Source: a virus. From it: a stretch of 52,751 nucleotides of DNA. The notes under the pieces were generated by a model. It was given only the letters and a program-made list of their open reading frames with translations. It was not told the origin of the DNA and did not search any database. A program made the translations under genes and the position numbers. Positions within the stretch are counted from its first letter, which is position 1; each line of letters starts with the position of its first letter. Location of the stretch: IMG/VR virus record IMGVR_UViG_3300032268_000734, positions 1 through 52,751 of that record, one strand, 5' to 3'. Shown piece by piece: positions 15,455-34,998 of this stretch.

Positions 15455-16186
15455 ATGGCTGCTTCTAAATCTATGGACTTTCCAGGTGCAAAAAAATCTA
15501 GTTATGCTGCTCAGGTAGAACAAACACAAGCCTCTCCGTATCAAGAAAATACACTTTCTTTTCTTCCAGTTCCTGGACCACAAGGTCCTCAAGGTCCAGC
15601 AGGTAGAGACGGAAAAGATGGTTTGCCAGGTCCAGTAGGACCAGAGGGACAAAAAGGACAAAAGGGAGAAAGAGGGCCATCAGGACAAAATGGACTAAGT
15701 TCTTTATCTTCTTCAGGACAGCAAGCAGGTTGGGCATCATACACAAATGCTATTGAAAAACCAATAAAACTTGGAATATCTCAAGGAAACGATGGATGGG
15801 TAACCTTAGTGCTAGACACAAAAGACAAAGAACAAAACGAAACCTATCTTCCAGCAGGATGTACAAGCCTTTGGAATAGCCATCAAAGAGCCCTAAACTT
15901 TCACGGCATAAAACAAGGTTCTCAGGTATTTGTAACATATAACTTTGAACTAACAACATATACTTCAAATACTGAGGTTTGGCTAAGAACATACTTTGCA
16001 AGTAAAGATAGAGAGTTTGTTCAGTTGATAGGATCTTTTAAATATCAGAACGTCTACAATCTTTCTGTAACCCAGCAGATATTTATAGAAGACCAGTCTA
16101 TGTGGGGTAATGGAGCAGTTCCACAGATTAGAACAGACTTTGACTCAACCGTAATATTCAATTCCGTATACGTCAGCGTGGTATAA
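15455..16186 (+). CDS. Collagen-like virion protein, 243 aa
   Basis: Residues about 40-75 are Gly-X-Y triplets (GPQGPQGPAGRDGKDGLPGP and on to GERGPSG), a collagen triple helix. A short N-terminal domain precedes it, and a beta-rich C-terminal domain (WVTLVLDTKDKE..., YNFELTTYTS) probably forms the trimeric knob. Several Y positions carry Pro, the classical substrate of prolyl-4-hydroxylase, and such an enzyme is encoded at 20923. GATAAT ends six bases before ATG 15455 (leaderless). Likely a fibre or appendage. Confidence 0.88.
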   Translation: MAASKSMDFPGAKKSSYAAQVEQTQASPYQENTLSFLPVPGPQGPQGPAGRDGKDGLPGPVGPEGQKGQKGERGPSGQNGLSSLSSSGQQAGWASYTNAIEKPIKLGISQGNDGWVTLVLDTKDKEQNETYLPAGCTSLWNSHQRALNFHGIKQGSQVFVTYNFELTTYTSNTEVWLRTYFASKDREFVQLIGSFKYQNVYNLSVTQQIFIEDQSMWGNGAVPQIRTDFDSTVIFNSVYVSVV

Positions 16187-17264: not shown

Positions 17265-20246
17265 GTGGCAGCAGAGAATATTGATAATACCGTTAATGGT
17301 ACTGGTCTATTCCCTGCAAAAGTACCTGGTCTTTCAGATGCAGCAGATATTCAAGCAGCGCTTAGACTTTACCACTATGGATCATATGCCTATGATGGTG
17401 CTAACACAAATCCTACACTTCTTCCAAATCCATCAATTGCAAAACATCTTCAAAACCTTGTAGATGCAGATGCAGCAGAGGTAACAAATAGAAATGCTGC
17501 TATTACAGCACATTCTTCAGCAACAACAAATATTCACGGAATATCAAACACAGCAAATCTTGCAACACAGACATATGTAAATACAGCAATTTCTGCTGCA
17601 GTTGGTGGCGTTACAGGAGAATTTTCAAACCTTGCTGGAACTGCTATTGACTGGAACTCTGTTGATGAAAGATTTGATGTTGAGCCAAGGCTTGCAAACT
17701 CTGGAACAATTATAACAAAAACAGAAAGTTTTATTTTATCTGCAAGTGATGTTGGCAAAACTGCTATCTTGTATTCTTCTAATCCAATGACCGTAACACT
17801 TCCAGAAAATGCTTCAGTAGAAATTCCAGTAGGATATTCAATTGACATAATTCAAACAGGAACGGGATCAGTAACAGTATCTGAAGGCAGTAGTGCTGTT
17901 TCAATTAATAGCAAGTCTAATATAAAATCTTTGGATGGACAATATTCAAAAGGAACGTTAGTTAAAATAGCCGACAATACATGGTTTTTTTTTGGAAACT
18001 TACTTAACGTAGTAACTCCAGTTACGCCTACAGCGCCTACTCCAGTTGCACCAACACCAGTTGCACCAACACCAACCCCACCAGCCCCAACGCCACCAGC
18101 CCCAACTCCACCTTCTCCAACTCCACCTTCTCCAACTCCACCTTCTCCAACACCACCAAGTCCAACACCACCTGTCCCAACACCACCTCAACTTCCAACT
18201 CCATCACTTTCGGTAACATCGCAGGGATGGAATAGTTATCCTAATGCAGCATATGCAAATATTGGTGTAGGAAATTATAACTATGAGAACGTTTATACTT
18301 CAAACCTTGGAACACAAAATCCAGAATTCCCAGAAGAATGGAATCTCGGTAATTTAAATCCAAATCAATCTTATACAGTTTATATAACTGCCTCCCGTGC
18401 TGGATATACAAGTGCTCAAGGATCTATAACATTCTCTGCTAATCCTGCATCAACCCCAACTCCAGTTGCTCCAACACCTGTAGCGCCTACACCAACTGGA
18501 CCAACAACATATAACATTTATACTTATTGTGATCCACTATTCCCTGCTATGAGAGGTGGAGCATATGGAACACAGACAGCAGGAACAACTGTTAATACTG
18601 GAACAACAACAAACCCATCTTTAAGTAGCGAACAGATAGTTGCACAACTTGGTTATGCTGGTGGATGTCCAACAGTTCCAATAGTAAATCCTGGAACAGT
18701 TTACTTATCATATTGTAGTCAAGGATCACCAGTTGTTGAAAGTTACCCTGTAAATGCAGATAACGTTCTTACTACAAACATTAACGAAGCATGTTCAGTC
18801 TATAGCACTCTTCTTACTAACATAGGTGCAACAAGCATTGACTGTTCAACAAGTTCTGCAAGAGTTGCACCAACAAATTGTGCACCAGCACCAACACCTG
18901 TTGCACCAACTCCTACAGCACCTACACCAGTAGCAACAGGTTACTATGCTTGGGGATGCTGTAATGGTGATCCACTAGTTATTGATGGACCTAACAATGC
19001 AACTGCCAGGGCCGATTATCAGTCTGTAGGAGGATGTACTGCTGCAGGAGTTCTATCAACTTATGCTGCTGCACTTTCAGCAGCACAGGCAGGATGTAAT
19101 GAATCAAGCCCAACGCCAACACCACCTACCATAACATATTATTTAGCACAAACAACAATTGATTTCCAGAATGACGACTGTGTGTCTGCTCCTGCATATG
19201 TTTCTTCACAAACGACAGCACCAGCAACAGTTGGTTCAATATATACAATAAGTTCTGGATCAAGAACATTAACTACTGGATATTGGAGTACAGTTTCTGC
19301 TGCAGATGCAGTTGCACAACTTCTTGCAGGAACTTCCCGTTGTCAAACACCAACACCAGTAGCGCCTACACCTGTAGCACCAACACCTGTTGCACCAACT
19401 CCTACAGCACCTACACCTGTAGCCCCTACTCCAGTAGCATCATGTCCTCCAAATGATGGTGGAAGTTATCAAGCAACAAATGTATTTACCAACACTTGCC
19501 AAGATCTAGGATTAGAATTTGTATGCAGAAATGCTAATATTGAATATTGTAGAAGTGCAGCACCTACACCTACACCACCAGCACCTACACCAACTCCTTC
19601 TTATCCAGCATTGCTTCCTGGACTACACTATTGTGCAAGTGGTGACGTTCCTAACCCATCAAGCCCATGTACTCAGTCAGATGTAACTAATGGTAATTGC
19701 AAGGATGGAGGAGCATCAGGACCATCTTGTGCTCCCGCACCAGTAGCACCTACACCTGTTGCTCCTACACCTGTAGCACCAACCCCAGTTGGAGCAACTT
19801 GTCCAGGACAATCAACTAATCCTGCACTCTATACATGTGCTGAACTAGGACTTACAAGACTTGGTGGTTCTGATTACTATAGCATTCCTGCAGGATGGTC
19901 TTGTTGCTCTGCACCTGCACCAACAGCGCCAACACCTGTAGCACCTACTCCTACAGCACCTACACCAACTGCACCGCTAGATTGTTCTCCATGTGATCCA
20001 CAATATTCTGGAGCCGCTTGTGGACAATATGGAAATGGAACTTTATGTTATACACCTTCAGGATGTCCAAATAGATGTGATGGAGATTATGCTCCAACGC
20101 CTACTGCACCAGCACCTGTTGCACCAGTAGCACCAACAGCACCTTCACGCTATACCTGTAGTCCATCAGATTACGCCAACCAGTGCTGTAGTTGCTTCTC
20201 TGTAGGAGCGTGTGATGCAAACGGAAGTAGTTGGCCAGCATGTTAA
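17265..20246 (+). CDS. Giant Pro/Thr-repeat (extensin- or mucin-like) fibre protein, 993 aa
   Basis: N-terminal 240 residues look like a tail-fibre base (AADIQAALRLYHYGSYAYDG, INTHGISNTANLATQTYV-like segment shared with the 27601 fibre). From residue about 246 the chain alternates (A/P)PTPVAPTPTAPTP linkers, at least nine blocks, with small Cys-rich globular modules (for example YYAWGCCNGDPL, YSGAACGQYGNG), probably disulphide-bonded outside the cell. GTG start with AAGGGTG upstream. The linkers resemble eukaryotic hydroxyproline-rich glycoproteins and are the obvious candidate substrate for the 2OG oxygenases and GlcNAc-transferase-like enzyme encoded just downstream. Even base composition with its neighbours argues against very recent transfer. 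Confidence 0.85.
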   Translation: MAAENIDNTVNGTGLFPAKVPGLSDAADIQAALRLYHYGSYAYDGANTNPTLLPNPSIAKHLQNLVDADAAEVTNRNAAITAHSSATTNIHGISNTANLATQTYVNTAISAAVGGVTGEFSNLAGTAIDWNSVDERFDVEPRLANSGTIITKTESFILSASDVGKTAILYSSNPMTVTLPENASVEIPVGYSIDIIQTGTGSVTVSEGSSAVSINSKSNIKSLDGQYSKGTLVKIADNTWFFFGNLLNVVTPVTPTAPTPVAPTPVAPTPTPPAPTPPAPTPPSPTPPSPTPPSPTPPSPTPPVPTPPQLPTPSLSVTSQGWNSYPNAAYANIGVGNYNYENVYTSNLGTQNPEFPEEWNLGNLNPNQSYTVYITASRAGYTSAQGSITFSANPASTPTPVAPTPVAPTPTGPTTYNIYTYCDPLFPAMRGGAYGTQTAGTTVNTGTTTNPSLSSEQIVAQLGYAGGCPTVPIVNPGTVYLSYCSQGSPVVESYPVNADNVLTTNINEACSVYSTLLTNIGATSIDCSTSSARVAPTNCAPAPTPVAPTPTAPTPVATGYYAWGCCNGDPLVIDGPNNATARADYQSVGGCTAAGVLSTYAAALSAAQAGCNESSPTPTPPTITYYLAQTTIDFQNDDCVSAPAYVSSQTTAPATVGSIYTISSGSRTLTTGYWSTVSAADAVAQLLAGTSRCQTPTPVAPTPVAPTPVAPTPTAPTPVAPTPVASCPPNDGGSYQATNVFTNTCQDLGLEFVCRNANIEYCRSAAPTPTPPAPTPTPSYPALLPGLHYCASGDVPNPSSPCTQSDVTNGNCKDGGASGPSCAPAPVAPTPVAPTPVAPTPVGATCPGQSTNPALYTCAELGLTRLGGSDYYSIPAGWSCCSAPAPTAPTPVAPTPTAPTPTAPLDCSPCDPQYSGAACGQYGNGTLCYTPSGCPNRCDGDYAPTPTAPAPVAPVAPTAPSRYTCSPSDYANQCCSCFSVGACDANGSSWPAC
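18000..18198 (+). repeat. Longest Pro/Thr repeat block in the 993-aa protein
   Basis: Tandem nine- to twelve-base codon repeats for APTPVAP and PPSPTPPSPTPP. Shorter blocks recur near 18460, 18885, 19110, 19350, 19560, 19740, 19915 and 20090. Near-identical DNA units make slippage and length variation likely. Confidence 0.85.
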
Positions 20247-27600: not shown

Positions 27601-29652
27601 ATGGCAACAAGAATGCAACAGCGCAGAGGTACTGCAGCCCAATGGACGGCTGCCAACCCAATTCTCGCAGCAGGTGAAATCGGATTTGAAACCGACACAA
27701 GTAAGTTTAAGATGGGTAACGGATCCTCTACATGGTCAGCATTGACATATTTTGCGAACGCAGCAGAACTAGCAGCGATCATTGACAGTGCTCCAGAAGC
27801 CCTCAATACTCTTAATGAGTTAGCAGCAGCAATCGGAGATAACCCAAACTTTTTAACAGCACTAGCAACAAATGAAAGAGTAGATGGAGTAGTTCTTAAT
27901 GGTCAGACACAACTTACTCAGGCAAGCAACTTTTTTAACGATGCTCTTGTAGCACACAATTTAAATCAACTAAATGTTCATGGAATTGCAAACACTCAAC
28001 TTCTAGCAACTACAGCAGAAGTAGCAACTACAGTAACTGCAGCAGCAGCAACTGCTAAGTCAGAAGCAATCGCTGCAGCCAACGATGCAGCAGATCAAAA
28101 GATTTTAACAGCAATCAATGCAATTCCAGCAGTTACAAGTGAGACTCTGGGTCTTGGAGAAGTAGATAATACACAAGATGCCTTTAAGCCAGTCTCAGCA
28201 GCGCAAGCATCTGCAATTGATACTGCAAAGACTGAGGCAATCACTGCAGCAGGTATCGCAGCCGATTCAAAGGTTTCAGCACATGATGTTGACACACTAA
28301 ATGTACACGGAATTGCTAACACAGCACTTCTTGTAACACAGACAGATCTATCAAATGCTCTTTTAGGTGCAGTAGTAGATCAATCAACCCTAGCAGGTGT
28401 AGGCATTGACTGGAATGCTGTAAGTGAAGCATTCGATGTTGACGAGACATACATTACAAATGCTACAGAAACAGCACTTGACCTTAAGGCACCACTTGCT
28501 TCACCAACATTTACAGGAACAGTAGTTCTTCCAGAAGTCACTGCAGGCGGAGATATTATTCCAGTAACAGATAACACATACAGCCTAGGATCTCCTACTA
28601 AAATGTTTAAAGACGTTTATGTTGGACCAGGATCACTTTATGTTAATGGCCAGAAGGTTCTTCAGGATGAATCAGGATCGATTGTTGTTTCTGCTGATCT
28701 TAACGAAAATCTAGGACTACGAACAAGCGGAAGCGGTAATATCGAACTAGATCCAACAGGAACTGGTTCTGTTAATATCAAGGGACCTCTAGTAGTTGAA
28801 GCAGGAGCCAACTTCTCAAGCGCAGACGGAGAAGGAATTGCATTTGGAAGCGGTATCAAATCTGATGCCATCACAAGCAAAACATTAAACACAGACTTAT
28901 CTCTATCAGGAAATGGTACAGGAAAAGTTTATCTTAACGATAATGCAGAAGTAAATGGAAACCTTGTTGTTGGTGGAAACCTAACAGTAAGCGGAACAAC
29001 TACAACTGTTAACAGCGAAACAATCGCTTTGGCTGATAATATTATTGACCTAAATAGCAACTTTACTACTGGAACTCCAACAGAGAATTCAGGACTAAGA
29101 GTTATGCGTGGAGACTCAGCAGCAGTACAGTTACGATGGAATGAGTCTACCGACAAATGGGAAATCACAAATGACGGAACAAACTATTCTTCAGTAGCAG
29201 GTCTTGAATCTCCTACATTTACAGGAACAGTTACAATACCAGCAGGCGCAAGCATTGCAGGGTATGCACCAGTTGCATCACCTACATTCACTGGAGCAGT
29301 AACAGTTGCAGCATCTGGAGTAGTCTTTACAGACGGCACACAGACCAAGGCTGGCGTTCCTTCGATTACAAACATTCCAACTGCAATAGCAGCAGGATCA
29401 GTTACAATTGAAGCAGATCGGGCAGATCAGTTTGTACCACTAAATGGAGCAGTAGTAATTACACTACCAGCAACAGGATACGCAACTGGCCAGTCAATTG
29501 ACTTCTACCAGGCATCATCTACAGGAGCACGGTTTGAATCAACTAACGGAGTCGTGGGAACACCAGGACTTAAGTTTAGAACAACCAACTCAGTAGCAAC
29601 AGCAATGAAAATTTCATCAGGATGGTTGGTCTTTGGAGACCTATCAGCCTAA
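27601..29652 (+). CDS. Tail fibre with Mtd_N-type N-terminus, 683 aa
   Basis: MATRMQQRRGTAAQWTAANP ... LAAGEIGFETDTSKFKMGNG is the N-terminal fold of the major tropism determinant and of many fibre proteins. After an Ala-rich helix and NVHGIANTALLVTQTDL repeats, the middle has LASPTFTGTV modules and the C-terminus beta strands (VPLNGAVVITLPATGYATGQ). SD AAGGAG. A likely host-recognition fibre. I see no template/variable repeat pair or reverse transcriptase, so no sign of a diversity-generating retroelement. Confidence 0.8.
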   Translation: MATRMQQRRGTAAQWTAANPILAAGEIGFETDTSKFKMGNGSSTWSALTYFANAAELAAIIDSAPEALNTLNELAAAIGDNPNFLTALATNERVDGVVLNGQTQLTQASNFFNDALVAHNLNQLNVHGIANTQLLATTAEVATTVTAAAATAKSEAIAAANDAADQKILTAINAIPAVTSETLGLGEVDNTQDAFKPVSAAQASAIDTAKTEAITAAGIAADSKVSAHDVDTLNVHGIANTALLVTQTDLSNALLGAVVDQSTLAGVGIDWNAVSEAFDVDETYITNATETALDLKAPLASPTFTGTVVLPEVTAGGDIIPVTDNTYSLGSPTKMFKDVYVGPGSLYVNGQKVLQDESGSIVVSADLNENLGLRTSGSGNIELDPTGTGSVNIKGPLVVEAGANFSSADGEGIAFGSGIKSDAITSKTLNTDLSLSGNGTGKVYLNDNAEVNGNLVVGGNLTVSGTTTTVNSETIALADNIIDLNSNFTTGTPTENSGLRVMRGDSAAVQLRWNESTDKWEITNDGTNYSSVAGLESPTFTGTVTIPAGASIAGYAPVASPTFTGAVTVAASGVVFTDGTQTKAGVPSITNIPTAIAAGSVTIEADRADQFVPLNGAVVITLPATGYATGQSIDFYQASSTGARFESTNGVVGTPGLKFRTTNSVATAMKISSGWLVFGDLSA

Positions 29653-29675
29653 TACAAAATTAAAGGAGATTAAAT

Positions 29676-31202
29676 ATGTCAAAGCAAGCAGGTAGAATGA
29701 GTCAGTCGGCAAACGACTTCCTGGCTCCACTAGCACCAACAATTGGTACAGCAACAAATGTTCCTTCAAATCGACCTTATAACGATGGACGTGCAGATGT
29801 AACATTTACCCCTAGCGCAGACGGTGCAGCAGCGACATCCTATACAGTCACATCTTCTCCTGGAGGATATACTGCAACAGGATCTTCTTCTCCAATTTCA
29901 GTAACTGGTCTTCAATCTGCAACACTTTATACATTTACAGTAACAGGAACAAACTCAGTAGGAACTGGTCCAGCATCTGCTGCATCAAATTCAATAACCG
30001 CAACAACTGTTCCATCTGCTCCAAGTGGTTTAAGTGCTACAGACACTGGAACAGGAAGACCATTTAATAATGCTGAAGCAAGAATAAGTTTTACTACTCC
30101 AGCAACAGGAGGAACAGACATTACTTCTTATGGAATTCAGTCAAATGATGGAGGTTACGCAACTTCTGGAAATTCAAATCCACTAAGTGCAGCAGGAATT
30201 GCATCAGGAACAACTTATTCTTTTAGAATTAATGCAACAAATGCAAATGGAACTTCTTCATACTCTGATTTGTCTAATGGGGTTACTCTGACAACTGTTC
30301 CACAAACACCTGGTGCACCATCTGCTTCCTCTCCTTCAGCAGGAACAGACAACGTATCATGGTCAGCACCAAATAATGGTGGTAAAGCAATTACTAACTA
30401 TCGATGGACATCATCAGACGGTAAAGCAGGAGACACATCTGGAACATCAGTAAGCCTTGGACAAGAACAAGGAACTGCTCAGACATACAATGTTTATGCA
30501 ACAAACGCAAACGGAAACTCTGGAACATCTTCTGAATCAGGATCTGTTACTACAGTATTTGCTGCCTTCGGCGCTTTCGGCGCTTTCGGTGCCTTCGGTG
30601 CTTTTGGAGCCTTCGGCGCTTTCGGTGCCTTCGGTGCCTTCGGTGCCTTCGGTGCCTTCGGTGCTTTCGGAGCCTTCGGTGCTTTCGGAGCCTTCGGTGC
30701 CTTTGGTGCGTACTATAAGTCTATCAGTTTACACACATTGGTTTTAACTCCAAATGGATATACCCAAGCATCAAATCTTAAAGTAGGAGACGAACTTGTT
30801 TCTACAGAAATTCCTGGTTTAGGAATGAACTTTACCTTACAAGATGTTCAAAATTGGACGGGAAATCCAGAAACTCTTCAAATGATTCCTGACAAAGTAA
30901 CAACAATCGTTGGTATGGGATCATCACAGGCAACACATTCTGTTTCTGTAAATGGAGAATTTTATTCAGGGAATCACACCATGCTTGTAAATAGAGAAGG
31001 CGTTGCCAAAATGATTACAAGCATAGACCTTTTTGAAACAGACCAGTTGTGGTCTGCAGACACAAATACTTGGACACCTATAACTGAATTAATAATCGCA
31101 GAAATTGCTCACGAAGTTATTTCTATTAACTGTGAGCCTTATGATCTGTTCTATACAGACCACTTCTTGGTTTATGACGGCTATCAAATAGAAAATCAGT
31201 AG
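29676..31202 (+). CDS. FN3 / (Ala-Phe-Gly)16 / Hint-like virion protein, 508 aa
   Basis: Three fibronectin type III domains (about residues 20-110, 113-205, 208-292), then 16 perfect Ala-Phe-Gly repeats (residues 297-344), then a C-terminal Hint-like (hedgehog/intein) domain. Hint signs: LHTLVLTPNGYTQASNLKVG and the DE that follows, FYSGNHTMLV (TxxH-like block), FYTDHFLVYDGYQIENQ. The usual nucleophile Cys1 is Ser, and residues after the last HN are absent, so splicing is unlikely; ester cleavage, cross-linking or a purely structural role remain. SD AAAGGAG. Confidence 0.82.
   Translation: MSKQAGRMSQSANDFLAPLAPTIGTATNVPSNRPYNDGRADVTFTPSADGAAATSYTVTSSPGGYTATGSSSPISVTGLQSATLYTFTVTGTNSVGTGPASAASNSITATTVPSAPSGLSATDTGTGRPFNNAEARISFTTPATGGTDITSYGIQSNDGGYATSGNSNPLSAAGIASGTTYSFRINATNANGTSSYSDLSNGVTLTTVPQTPGAPSASSPSAGTDNVSWSAPNNGGKAITNYRWTSSDGKAGDTSGTSVSLGQEQGTAQTYNVYATNANGNSGTSSESGSVTTVFAAFGAFGAFGAFGAFGAFGAFGAFGAFGAFGAFGAFGAFGAFGAFGAFGAYYKSISLHTLVLTPNGYTQASNLKVGDELVSTEIPGLGMNFTLQDVQNWTGNPETLQMIPDKVTTIVGMGSSQATHSVSVNGEFYSGNHTMLVNREGVAKMITSIDLFETDQLWSADTNTWTPITELIIAEIAHEVISINCEPYDLFYTDHFLVYDGYQIENQ
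30564..30707 (+). repeat. Sixteen 9-base GCN-TTY-GGN repeats
   Basis: Encodes (AFG)16 without interruption. Third positions vary, so the protein repeat is maintained while the DNA drifts. This is strong evidence that the amino-acid repeat is under selection. Confidence 0.95.
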
Positions 31203-31204
31203 TA

Positions 31205-31711
31205 GTGTTTAGGCCTGTTGATACTTCAGCCTTTGATCACCCAGAACAATTAAAGGGGTCTTGGATGCATGTTGTTTTCTTTGAGAATCACCCAAACCCT
31301 AATATAGATGGGATAGGCTATCTATATTTTAATGATAAATATCCAAGCGGTTCTTTATTCGTTGGAGATTATATTTTAAATGACTATCCAGATGGATATT
31401 TAACAATGAGAAAAATTGATGATGAAACATACACATCAGGAAGACTCTTTATATCCCCACCACTTAGAAACAAAGGAATTGCTACAGCAGCAACAATCTA
31501 TTGCTTTAGTCTTATGAAACATTGTTTTAATAAAAAGATTTCTCATTTATCTGGATCAGATGTTGCAAACAGGGCAGTAGAAAATGCTTCTAAAGTTACA
31601 AATTTTGATTTTGGAGTAGCAGAAGTAGAAGAAGGAATTCATTTAAACAAAGAATTTTTTGATCAACCTGTAAGGCCATATATATTTTTTGGCAGGAGGC
31701 TTTCCATATGA
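31205..31711 (+). CDS. GNAT-like acetyltransferase fold protein, 168 aa
   Basis: GRLFISPPLRNKGIATAATI (about residues 79-98) resembles the acetyl-CoA binding motif A (R-x-x-G-x-A) and is followed by ATIYCFSLMKHCF and SDVANRAVENASKVTNFDFG, as in GNAT proteins where the last block is the N-R-A motif. GTG start directly after the upstream stop codons. Substrate unknown. Coupled to the next gene by ATGA. Confidence 0.6.
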   Translation: MFRPVDTSAFDHPEQLKGSWMHVVFFENHPNPNIDGIGYLYFNDKYPSGSLFVGDYILNDYPDGYLTMRKIDDETYTSGRLFISPPLRNKGIATAATIYCFSLMKHCFNKKISHLSGSDVANRAVENASKVTNFDFGVAEVEEGIHLNKEFFDQPVRPYIFFGRRLSI

Positions 31712-32157: not shown

Positions 32158-32871
32158 ATGAACACTATTAGATTTTTACAAATGTATCCAGCGCTAACAA
32201 ACATTGTTCCAGAGCCAGAACAAGCAACAAAGAATGTTCCCTCTTGGTACAAGGATCAGCCAGCAATATCAGGAAGTGATATTCCCGATAGAGGAATAAT
32301 GAGACTTACTGTAAAAAAATGTCAAGCATTCTTTGATGCAATGGCAATGGGATATATTCTAAAAGTTCCATGCGATATATACCTTGACACAACTGATGGA
32401 AACATTAACCTTCAACTTCCTGCTGCTATGAATAAATACTATTCACTGTTAATAAGCGAACATTCAGCAGAGCAGGTGTCTCATTTACCTATAGACAAAG
32501 ATATATATTGTAACAAAATACTAAGAATTCATCCTACTTGGATGGTTCAGACTGATAAGGGCTATAGCACATTATTTACAAACCCAATCCACCAAAGTCC
32601 TTCACCACTAAAGGCTATCGATGCTGTAGTTGACACTGATAACTATTTTACTGACGGGCATTTATCATTTTTAGTAAAGAAGAACTTTAAAGGAACCATT
32701 AAGCAAGGAACCCCAATGTTTCAAGTTTTCCCATTTAAAAGAGAAGACTGGACAATGGAATTAGACAAAAATTTTTCAGCAAAAAAAGTAGAAGAACAAA
32801 GAGATAAGGTTAGATCTAGTTTTCAAAATGGCTACAGACTTAAGTTTTGGCAAAAGAAAACTTTTAAGTAA
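32158..32871 (+). CDS. DUF6065-like phage protein, 237 aa
   Basis: EPEQATKNVPSWYKDQPAIS, then MRLTVKKCQAFFDAMAMGYI and CDIYLDTTDGNINLQ follow the pattern of a family seen in T4-like and other aquatic phages (PxPxxxPxWYK, then KxCxxFxDAMxxGY). Function unknown. Extended -10 TGA-TATAAT (32130-32135) and GAAAGG precede ATG 32158. The family assignment is from memory of the pattern and is uncertain. Confidence 0.6.
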   Translation: MNTIRFLQMYPALTNIVPEPEQATKNVPSWYKDQPAISGSDIPDRGIMRLTVKKCQAFFDAMAMGYILKVPCDIYLDTTDGNINLQLPAAMNKYYSLLISEHSAEQVSHLPIDKDIYCNKILRIHPTWMVQTDKGYSTLFTNPIHQSPSPLKAIDAVVDTDNYFTDGHLSFLVKKNFKGTIKQGTPMFQVFPFKREDWTMELDKNFSAKKVEEQRDKVRSSFQNGYRLKFWQKKTFK

Positions 32872-32964: not shown

Positions 32965-34998
32965 ATGTCAGATTTTTTTAGTTTTAAACTTCCAGAGGAC
33001 TTCGTAGAAAAATACAAAAGCCAAGAAAACCCATTTGGGTTTAAGGATGCAGCAGAAAATTCTCTTGGAGAGATTACTTTTATTCGTACGTATTCTCGTA
33101 TGAAGGAAGATGGAACTAAGGAAAGATGGCATGAGGTTTGTCGTCGTGTAATTGAGGGCATGTATTCAGTACAGAAGAACCATGCTAAAGAAAACCGTTT
33201 GCCATGGAATGATTACAAGGCTCAGAAGTCTGCACAAGAAGCATTCCAAAGAATGTTTGAGTTGAAGTGGACTCCACCAGGCCGTGGTATGTGGGCATTT
33301 GGAACTCCTATGACTATGGAGAAAAAGAACTCAGCAGCACTACAGAACTGTGCAATGGTTTCCACTAAAGACCTTGACAAGAACGATCCAGGAGCCTTAT
33401 TTGCTTGGGTTATGGATGCCCTTATGCTTGGTATTGGTGTAGGGTTTGATACAGTGGGACAGGATAAGAATTTCTCAATCTATACCCCAACAGAACCAGA
33501 ACAGGTGTTCGAAATCCCAGACACTCGTGAAGGATGGGTAGAGTCAGTTAGACTTCTAATCAACTCATACCTAAGAGCAAACCAGAGCATTCAGAAGTTT
33601 AACTATGATTTGATCAGGCCTCTTGGAGCCCCCATTAAGGGCTTTGGAGGCGTTGCATCAGGACCTGCACCTCTTATCAAGTTACACGACCAGATAGACC
33701 GTGTAATCGGCTCCAGAGGCGGAGAAGCCCTAGATTCTCGTGCTATCGTAGACTTGGTAAACCTTATTGGTACCTGTGTGGTATCAGGCAATGTTCGCAG
33801 ATCAGCAACTCTCGCTTTGGGTAATGCGGGGGATGAAACATTTATGAATCTAAAGAACTCAGAACTATTCCCAGAGCGTAACTCATTTGATCCAGAGAAT
33901 CCAGGTTGGGCCTGGATGTCTAACAATTCTATTTCAGCAGAAGTAGGAACAAAGTACGAAGATTATGTAGATTTGATTACTGAAAACGGAGAGCCAGGGT
34001 TTATCTGGCTTGATGTTGCTCGTAATTATGGAAGACTAAAGGATGCCCCAGACGGTAAGGATTATCGTGTGATGGGGTTCAACCCATGTGCGGAGCAGCC
34101 ATTGGAATCATACGAACTATGTACGCTTGTAGAAGTGCACTTAAATCGTCATGAATCTAAGGAAGACTTCCTACGTACCCTGAAGTTTGCATACCTATAT
34201 GGAAAGACTGTAACACTTGTTCCAACGCACTGGCCACAAACAAACGGCATCATGCAACGTAACCGCCGTATCGGTACATCATTAACAGGTATTGCATCAT
34301 TTGCAGATCAGCATGGTTTGCCAATTGTTCGTGAGTGGATGGACGAAGGATACAGCAAGATTCGTCACTACGATCATCAGTATTCGGAATGGCTTTGTGT
34401 TCGTGAATCAATTCGTGTAACAACAGTTAAGCCATCAGGATCTGTTTCAATTCTTTCTGGTGCAACTCCTGGAGTTCACTGGGGACCTGGAGGAAACTTT
34501 TTCCTTCGTGCAGTTCGATTTGGAAACACAGACCCAATGATGCATTTGTTCAAGGCAGCGGGGTACACAATCGAAGACGACGTAGTATCAGCAAATACAT
34601 CAGTAGTTTACTTCCCAATCAAGTCAGGTCATCCAAGATCTGAAAAGGATGTAACATTATTTGAGAAGATTGCTCTTGCTGCAACTGCTCAGAAGTACTG
34701 GTCAGATAATGGTGTTTCTGTAACACTTTCATTTGACAAGGAAACAGAATCAAAGCATGTTGTTCCAGCACTCAATATGTATGAGGGACAACTAAAGGCT
34801 GTTTCATTCCTTCCAATGGGAAATACTGTTTATCCACAACAGCCATATACTCAGATTACTCAAGATCAGTATGAGTCTTATATTGGCAAGTTGAAGCATA
34901 TTGATTTTGCTGCTATTTATGATGGAGCAGAAAATCTTGAGGCTCAAGGAGAGATGTACTGCACTACAGATTACTGTGAAATTAAAATAAACAAGTAG
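32965..34998 (+). CDS. nrdJ: Ribonucleotide reductase class II, adenosylcobalamin-dependent, monomeric type (677 aa)
   Basis: Reduces ribonucleotides to deoxyribonucleotides using B12. Seen: PPGRGMWAFGTP, LQNCAMVS (redox Cys), NPCAEQPLESYELCTLVE with the thiyl-radical Cys at about residue 375, VKPSGSVSILSGATPGVH, and the C-terminal redox pair in YCTTDYCEIKI (Cys665, Cys670). The NPCxEQxLExxELC form fits the monomeric Lactobacillus-type triphosphate reductase. Arg codons are largely CGT/CGC, unlike AGA-rich neighbours, suggesting high expression or a different origin. The SD GAAAGGA and operator-like repeat imply controlled expression. No thioredoxin or small subunit nearby is needed by class II. 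Confidence 0.93.
   Translation: MSDFFSFKLPEDFVEKYKSQENPFGFKDAAENSLGEITFIRTYSRMKEDGTKERWHEVCRRVIEGMYSVQKNHAKENRLPWNDYKAQKSAQEAFQRMFELKWTPPGRGMWAFGTPMTMEKKNSAALQNCAMVSTKDLDKNDPGALFAWVMDALMLGIGVGFDTVGQDKNFSIYTPTEPEQVFEIPDTREGWVESVRLLINSYLRANQSIQKFNYDLIRPLGAPIKGFGGVASGPAPLIKLHDQIDRVIGSRGGEALDSRAIVDLVNLIGTCVVSGNVRRSATLALGNAGDETFMNLKNSELFPERNSFDPENPGWAWMSNNSISAEVGTKYEDYVDLITENGEPGFIWLDVARNYGRLKDAPDGKDYRVMGFNPCAEQPLESYELCTLVEVHLNRHESKEDFLRTLKFAYLYGKTVTLVPTHWPQTNGIMQRNRRIGTSLTGIASFADQHGLPIVREWMDEGYSKIRHYDHQYSEWLCVRESIRVTTVKPSGSVSILSGATPGVHWGPGGNFFLRAVRFGNTDPMMHLFKAAGYTIEDDVVSANTSVVYFPIKSGHPRSEKDVTLFEKIALAATAQKYWSDNGVSVTLSFDKETESKHVVPALNMYEGQLKAVSFLPMGNTVYPQQPYTQITQDQYESYIGKLKHIDFAAIYDGAENLEAQGEMYCTTDYCEIKINK

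Follow-up and report, generated by a model that had tools for sequence, protein, structure and literature searches.

A putative phage tail protein, in which sixteen Ala-Phe-Gly units are followed by a C-terminal Hint domain with Ser at position 1, is encoded in the window analysed here, i.e., the whole 52,751-base stretch of an IMG/VR virus record. The reading favoured, with some reserve, from the sequence evidence is that a Ser1-dependent self-cleavage at K348/S349 sheds the Hint domain and would leave the tract as the C-terminus of a tail (fibre-tip) protein. Hint domains, S74 end-caps and FN3 tail proteins are already known. In the open literature searched, neither a Ser1 Hint domain of the N-cleavage type capping a swappable aromatic phage-tail tract nor any description of phage FN3-Hint proteins or of FFPPFF in phages was found. 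If the reading is true, phage Hint domains are disposable tail-protein end-caps interchangeable with S74, environmental phages possess an entire class of tips, made of aromatic/proline repeats, that is so far undescribed, Ser1 Hint domains acquire a testable role beyond splicing and Hedgehog signalling, and both small self-cleaving tags and FG- or silk-like phage materials could be drawn from this system.

Gene Context and Domain Organization

The open reading frame at 29676-31202 on the plus strand codes for 508 amino acids from an ATG. Its features and neighbours are as follows:

27601-29652, plus strand: tail-fibre-like gene with a Mtd_N domain (Pfam Mtd_N, E 4e-13), upstream conserved neighbour at -1, where a homolog stands in 70 loci
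29665-29668, plus strand: GGAG ribosome-binding site, read from the sequence, 7 nt 5' of the ATG at 29676
29676-29735, plus strand: N-terminal tag MSKQAGRMSQSANDFLAPLA, conserved in the full-length alignment and in L250, L256 and L325
29736-30554, plus strand: three FN3-type segments (Pfam fn3, AlphaFold2 strands, phrog_6977)
30564-30707, plus strand: (AFG)16 tract, residues 297-344, by direct reading (pLDDT about 25)
30708-30719, plus strand: linker AYYK, directly before Ser1
30719/30720, plus strand: putative scissile bond K348/S349, placed by its position before Ser1
30720-31178, plus strand: Hint domain, residues 349-501, 153 residues (AlphaFold2 pLDDT 88, Foldseek, conservation)
31179-31199, plus strand: C-terminal tail GYQIENQ after the Hint domain, by direct reading
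31205-31711, plus strand: GNAT-like gene, downstream, a conserved neighbour in 25 loci
32158-32871, plus strand: phrog_7084 gene, downstream, a conserved neighbour in 69 loci

The three FN3 domains of the first-pass annotation are recovered in part, two stretches being matched by Pfam fn3 (E 4e-13), while the third FN3-like segment appears by repeat similarity and predicted strands only. The match of the protein to the minor tail protein phrog_6977 (E 4e-10), together with the synteny with tail-fibre genes, points to a location in the virion. The tag MSKQAGRMSQSANDFLAPLA is common to relatives bearing other tracts and other C-terminal domains. A ribonucleotide reductase of the B12-dependent type (32965-34998, plus strand) lies inside the structural block, and about 40 relatives have a homolog of it after the Hint gene.

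Fold and Active Site of the Hint Domain

Sequence profiles scarcely detect the domain (gp41-1 intein, E 0.012; the bacterial intein-like (BIL) domain 2LWY, E 0.02; Hint_2, best E 0.039, matched in 3 of 16 members), and the window domain alone gave no convincing direct match in Pfam, PHROGs, NCBIfam or PDB. The fold prediction that the first-pass annotation had proposed as a check returned a confident Hint fold with Ser349 at position 1, as it had been read: AlphaFold2 on 16 Hint homologs reached pLDDT 88 and pTM 0.81, and Foldseek found 48 PDB matches at E <= 0.001, of which the best, as listed, are inteins, BIL and Hedgehog domains; among named viral proteins, the best matches were uncultured-phage proteins of the FN3, PASTA or Hint kind. 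The active-site positions in the window are Ser1 (S349), Thr6 (T354), the SxxH of block B (S431/H434), block F (SINCEPYD, 483-490) and the domain end LVYD (498-501).

The family, gathered by searches from the Hint domain and from the (AFG)5 DNA pattern, comprises 116 distinct Hint sequences, with 90 representatives (86 from IMG/VR and four sequenced phages). Over a Hint tree of 25.9 substitutions per site, Ser1 and the block-B His, neither of which formed part of the search bait, are each present in 86/86 IMG/VR representatives, Thr6 is present in 84/86, and block B reads S/T/VxxH; the invariance of INCEPxD in the same set is not independent, because the motif partly served as bait. On the C-terminal side, the penultimate position, which is His in inteins, is Tyr/Phe in 69/86 and His in 14, and the position of the terminal Asn is occupied by Asp in 83/86 and by Asn in three. 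The window domain ends in Tyr-Asp-Gly (LVYD-G), the +1 nucleophile is not conserved among the relatives, and some of them end in His-Asp-Ser. The N-terminal half of the active site is thus kept and the C-terminal half lost (residue roles as in inteins, PMC4031507), which is the pattern of a Hint domain cleaving on its N-terminal side only, where the Hedgehog Hint domain also acts exclusively (review PMC9163320).

The Hint fold, Ser1 and the block-B His place the domain in the Hint superfamily, to which it belongs at large only. A class 1 intein was rejected for the missing penultimate His, terminal Asn and Cys/Ser/Thr at +1, and a class 3 intein because F:4 is Ser/Thr and the invariant Cys aligns three residues later in comparison with the jumbo-phage Hint domains; this Cys486 (31131-31133), the block-F Cys of the partly baited INCEPxD motif, lies away from the class 3 position. 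An A-type BIL does not agree with Tyr-Asp in place of the conserved C-terminal His-Asn, nor Hedgehog with Ser1 instead of Cys1 and with 7 residues after the domain and no sterol-recognition region, and Peptidase_S74 is excluded by the absence of a Pfam S74 match and by the Hint fold.

BIL domains (C. thermocellum 2LWY and Tetrahymena BUBL BIL2 6Y75) give some of the best structural matches (E from 5e-7 to 8e-7), likewise have no conserved +1 nucleophile and can cleave without splicing, whereas the window domain has Ser1 rather than Cys1, lacks the His-Asn end, is marginally similar in sequence (E 0.02) and follows an aromatic tract within a phage tail protein. The Hedgehog autoprocessing domain (1AT0) shares the Hint fold (E 1e-4), the C-terminal position, a TxxH-type motif and, on the proposed reading, the N-terminal-side chemistry. 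Peptidase_S74 (PF13884) is likewise C-terminal on tail proteins, removes itself in dependence on Ser and occupies the same place after FFPP in L277, but has an unrelated fold with a Ser-Lys dyad (PMC8326128) and acts as a trimer. The Cys1 Hint domains of jumbo phages (Erwinia Yoloswag, Dickeya AD1, Yersinia fHe-Yen9-02) are detectably related and C-terminal on a tail-region protein, but differ by the Cys1 with C-terminal His-Asn, the collagen-like stalk and the lack of an aromatic tract. The tail-region proteins of Erwinia Yoloswag, Yersinia fHe-Yen9-02, Alcaligenes Afa-NA1 and Dickeya AD1 (L161-L164), with such a stalk and a Cys1..His-Asn Hint end, are annotated merely as virion or tail protein.

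The Aromatic Tract and Its Replacement among Relatives

The early reading of sixteen exact AFG units with third-codon drift was confirmed: 16/16 units are exact, with 7 distinct 9-mers and zero amino-acid changes (GCC10/GCT6, TTC14/TTT2, GGT10/GGC3/GGA3; Tandem Repeats Finder score 196). Across 34 related tracts, 463 synonymous and 142 nonsynonymous differences from the unit consensus were counted, where about 71% would be nonsynonymous under neutrality, a constraint that is overstated because the regex defining the tracts admits few variants. The tract is disordered (pLDDT about 25) in the full-length AlphaFold2 model, which was poor overall (pTM 0.32) and served for the tract and the strands only. 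A collagen-like repeat was rejected, since the Pfam score is 19.4 bits with a cut-off of 27.2, the relatives swap Gly for Ser, Ala or Asn, and other tracts have no Gly spacing.

Searched alone, the (AFG)5 DNA pattern marks 64 IMG/VR loci, in 53 of which the tract and a Hint domain share one reading frame; the remaining 11 comprise short frames, unrelated frames and tracts lying at the end of a contig. Frames with the HYAGF pattern have a Hint domain in 17/18, the last one being cut by the contig end. No AFG-tract gene stopping at the tract was seen, which counts against cleavage.

In nearly every relative with sufficient upstream sequence, a low-complexity repeat directly precedes Ser1, and by representative it is of the AFG (36), HYAGF (16), FFPP (13), FSPF-like (7), NPGF (4), VIIxP (3) or other types, VIIAEP repeats being found at the same position as the AFG, FFPP, HYAGF and NPGF ones. 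In 67 proteins, aromatic residues make up 30% of the last 60 positions before Ser1 and 8% of the N-terminal part, and charged residues account for only 2.9% of those 60 positions; in five members the tract is of a proline/valine type and contains at most 10% aromatics. Tract lengths vary. The tract type has changed at least 17 times on the Hint tree, with AFG and FFPP each in two well-separated parts, so that the Hint domain has been kept while one tract was replaced by another of similar character. A hydrophobic repeat in a virion protein, called unexpected at the outset, is indeed so when known proteins at large are considered; in this phage group, however, an aromatic or proline-rich repeat at that place is the rule. 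Lys stands at -1 of Ser1 in 24/86 representatives, though it makes up 0.6% of tract-region residues, which favours cleavage; its confinement to one half of the Hint tree counts against cleavage. In several relatives (L005-L014, L070, L079), proline/valine-rich stretches and small Cys-rich modules lie between FN3 and the AFG tract.

A prophage or host origin was rejected, as a profile-guided scan of 84,980 prokaryote genomes found no relative. The FFPP scan of genomes returned six contigs, of which L383, L385 and L388 (two from one MAG) encode proteins with N-termini of a phage-like PASTA type and may be phage DNA contaminating the MAGs; the remaining three look like unrelated frames.

Alternative Ends after FFPP Tracts

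Environmental phages widely carry the FFPP tract (L245-L364, at least 120 loci), usually near the C-terminus and often ending in ..FK and a stop; some of the proteins concerned occupy the same syntenic locus as the Hint gene, and some bear the same N-terminal tag. Among the 113 distinct reading frames of the matches listed, 61 stop within about 30 residues of the tract, and 31 of the 61 end in Lys, mostly as ..PPxFK. The others continue into a Cys-rich tail (24), a Hint domain (11; 8 Cys1 and 3 Ser1), an S74-like start (3) or another domain (11), or run off the contig end (3). In L277 (..FFPPAFK-SDVRDK..; Peptidase_S74, E 7e-12), the S74 catalytic Ser occupies the position of the Hint Ser1. 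However, the S74 replacements are few, three with one strong, which counts against cleavage. Six of the eight Cys1 Hint domains beside FFPP tracts have no block-B His, so that a Hint domain can persist at the locus without apparent chemistry, which lends more weight to the unbroken conservation in the Ser1 branch and yet keeps a purely structural role alive. L357 has a Cys1..His-Asn domain with a Pfam Intein_splicing match (E 1e-6) under the curated cut-off.

A second tail gene (17265-20246, plus strand) encodes a 993-residue protein with APTPV repeats, Cys-rich modules and a Cys-rich tail at its end; its N-terminal homologs L303 and L320 carry FFPP and a Cys1 Hint domain, so the same end modules shuffle between the two tail genes.

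Proposed Cleavage and Its Alternatives

The reality of the Ser1 Hint domain and the invariance of its N-terminal catalytic residues support cleavage at the tract/Hint boundary, and from the positional equivalence of the Hint domain with stop codons and S74 the mature tail protein probably ends in the tract. After folding, Ser349 would attack the K348-S349 peptide bond in an N-to-O acyl shift, with His434 assisting. Water or another nucleophile would then resolve the ester, so that the Hint domain would separate and the mature protein would end in the (AFG)16 tract. Before cleavage, the domain may shield the sticky tract or aid folding, like the S74 intramolecular-chaperone domains of other tail fibres. 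Once exposed, the aromatic tract would probably be an adhesive or fibre-bundling tip, which is the weakest step of the proposal. Two chemical points count against cleavage: block F:4 is Ser in the window domain where many inteins have Asp, which helps the first step in many of them, and ester formation at Ser is harder than thioester formation at Cys. As regards the initial suggestion that the tract may be released or cross-linked, release is plausible, while no positive evidence for cross-linking was obtained.

The best surviving alternative, which we consider rather unlikely, is a non-cleaving structural tip, i.e., a receptor-binding knob or cap exchanged with Cys-rich knobs, FN3 and S74, in which Ser1 and His are structural. 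Tail-fibre C-termini usually bind receptors, and both the exchange with Cys-rich tails and FN3 domains at the same locus and the Cys1 relatives that lost the block-B His agree with such a role; a pure knob would, however, be expected to drift, whereas Ser1 and His stayed invariant in 86/86 while other active-site residues changed.

A Hedgehog-like ligation, in which a specific acceptor (a sugar, a lipid or an amine of a virion or host protein) attacks the Ser1 ester and the tract becomes covalently attached, is doubtful. If the C-terminal end of the tract were transferred to an acceptor at the surface of the virion or the host, the domain would be a viral counterpart of Hedgehog attachment and the tract a covalent phage adhesive. 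A Ser ester is more water-resistant than a thioester, which suits the transfer. The chemistry of Hint domains permits it (Hedgehog cholesterol, BIL/BUBL; PMC9163320), and BUBL BIL2 and Hedgehog are among the structural matches; against it stand the lack of an acceptor-binding region, with only the 7-residue tail after the window domain, and the ..FK stop versions, which suggest that a free end suffices.

Protein splicing, with the Hint domain excised and the tract joined to the short C-terminal peptide, is very improbable because the C-terminal splicing residues and the nucleophile at +1 are missing from the Tyr-Asp-Gly end, although the Hint fold and the His-Asp-Ser ends of some relatives would agree with it. 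Equally hard to credit is a decayed intein beside a neutral microsatellite, which would account for the intein residues missing on the C-terminal side and for the differing tract lengths, but not for Ser1 and His invariant over a long tree, tract residues conserved while codons drift, or the presence of unrelated but compositionally similar repeats at one position.

2OG-Fe(II) Oxygenases and Proline-Rich Tracts

Small enzymes are encoded downstream of the Hint gene, namely the phrog_7084 protein, GNAT, 2OG-Fe(II) oxygenases and DUF6065. Among the 79 Hint loci with enough downstream sequence, an oxygenase lies nearby in 25/29 loci with proline-rich tracts versus 2/50 with proline-poor ones (Fisher p 3e-14; examples L156, L202, L121). 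On the tree, this association comes down to about three independent contrasts, all pointing the same way (sign test not significant), and lineage may explain it because the contrasts are so few; hydroxylation of prolines in the tract is no more than a lead. A second protein of the structural region, encoded at 15455-16186 on the plus strand, has a collagen-like stretch (Pfam Collagen, E 1e-7).
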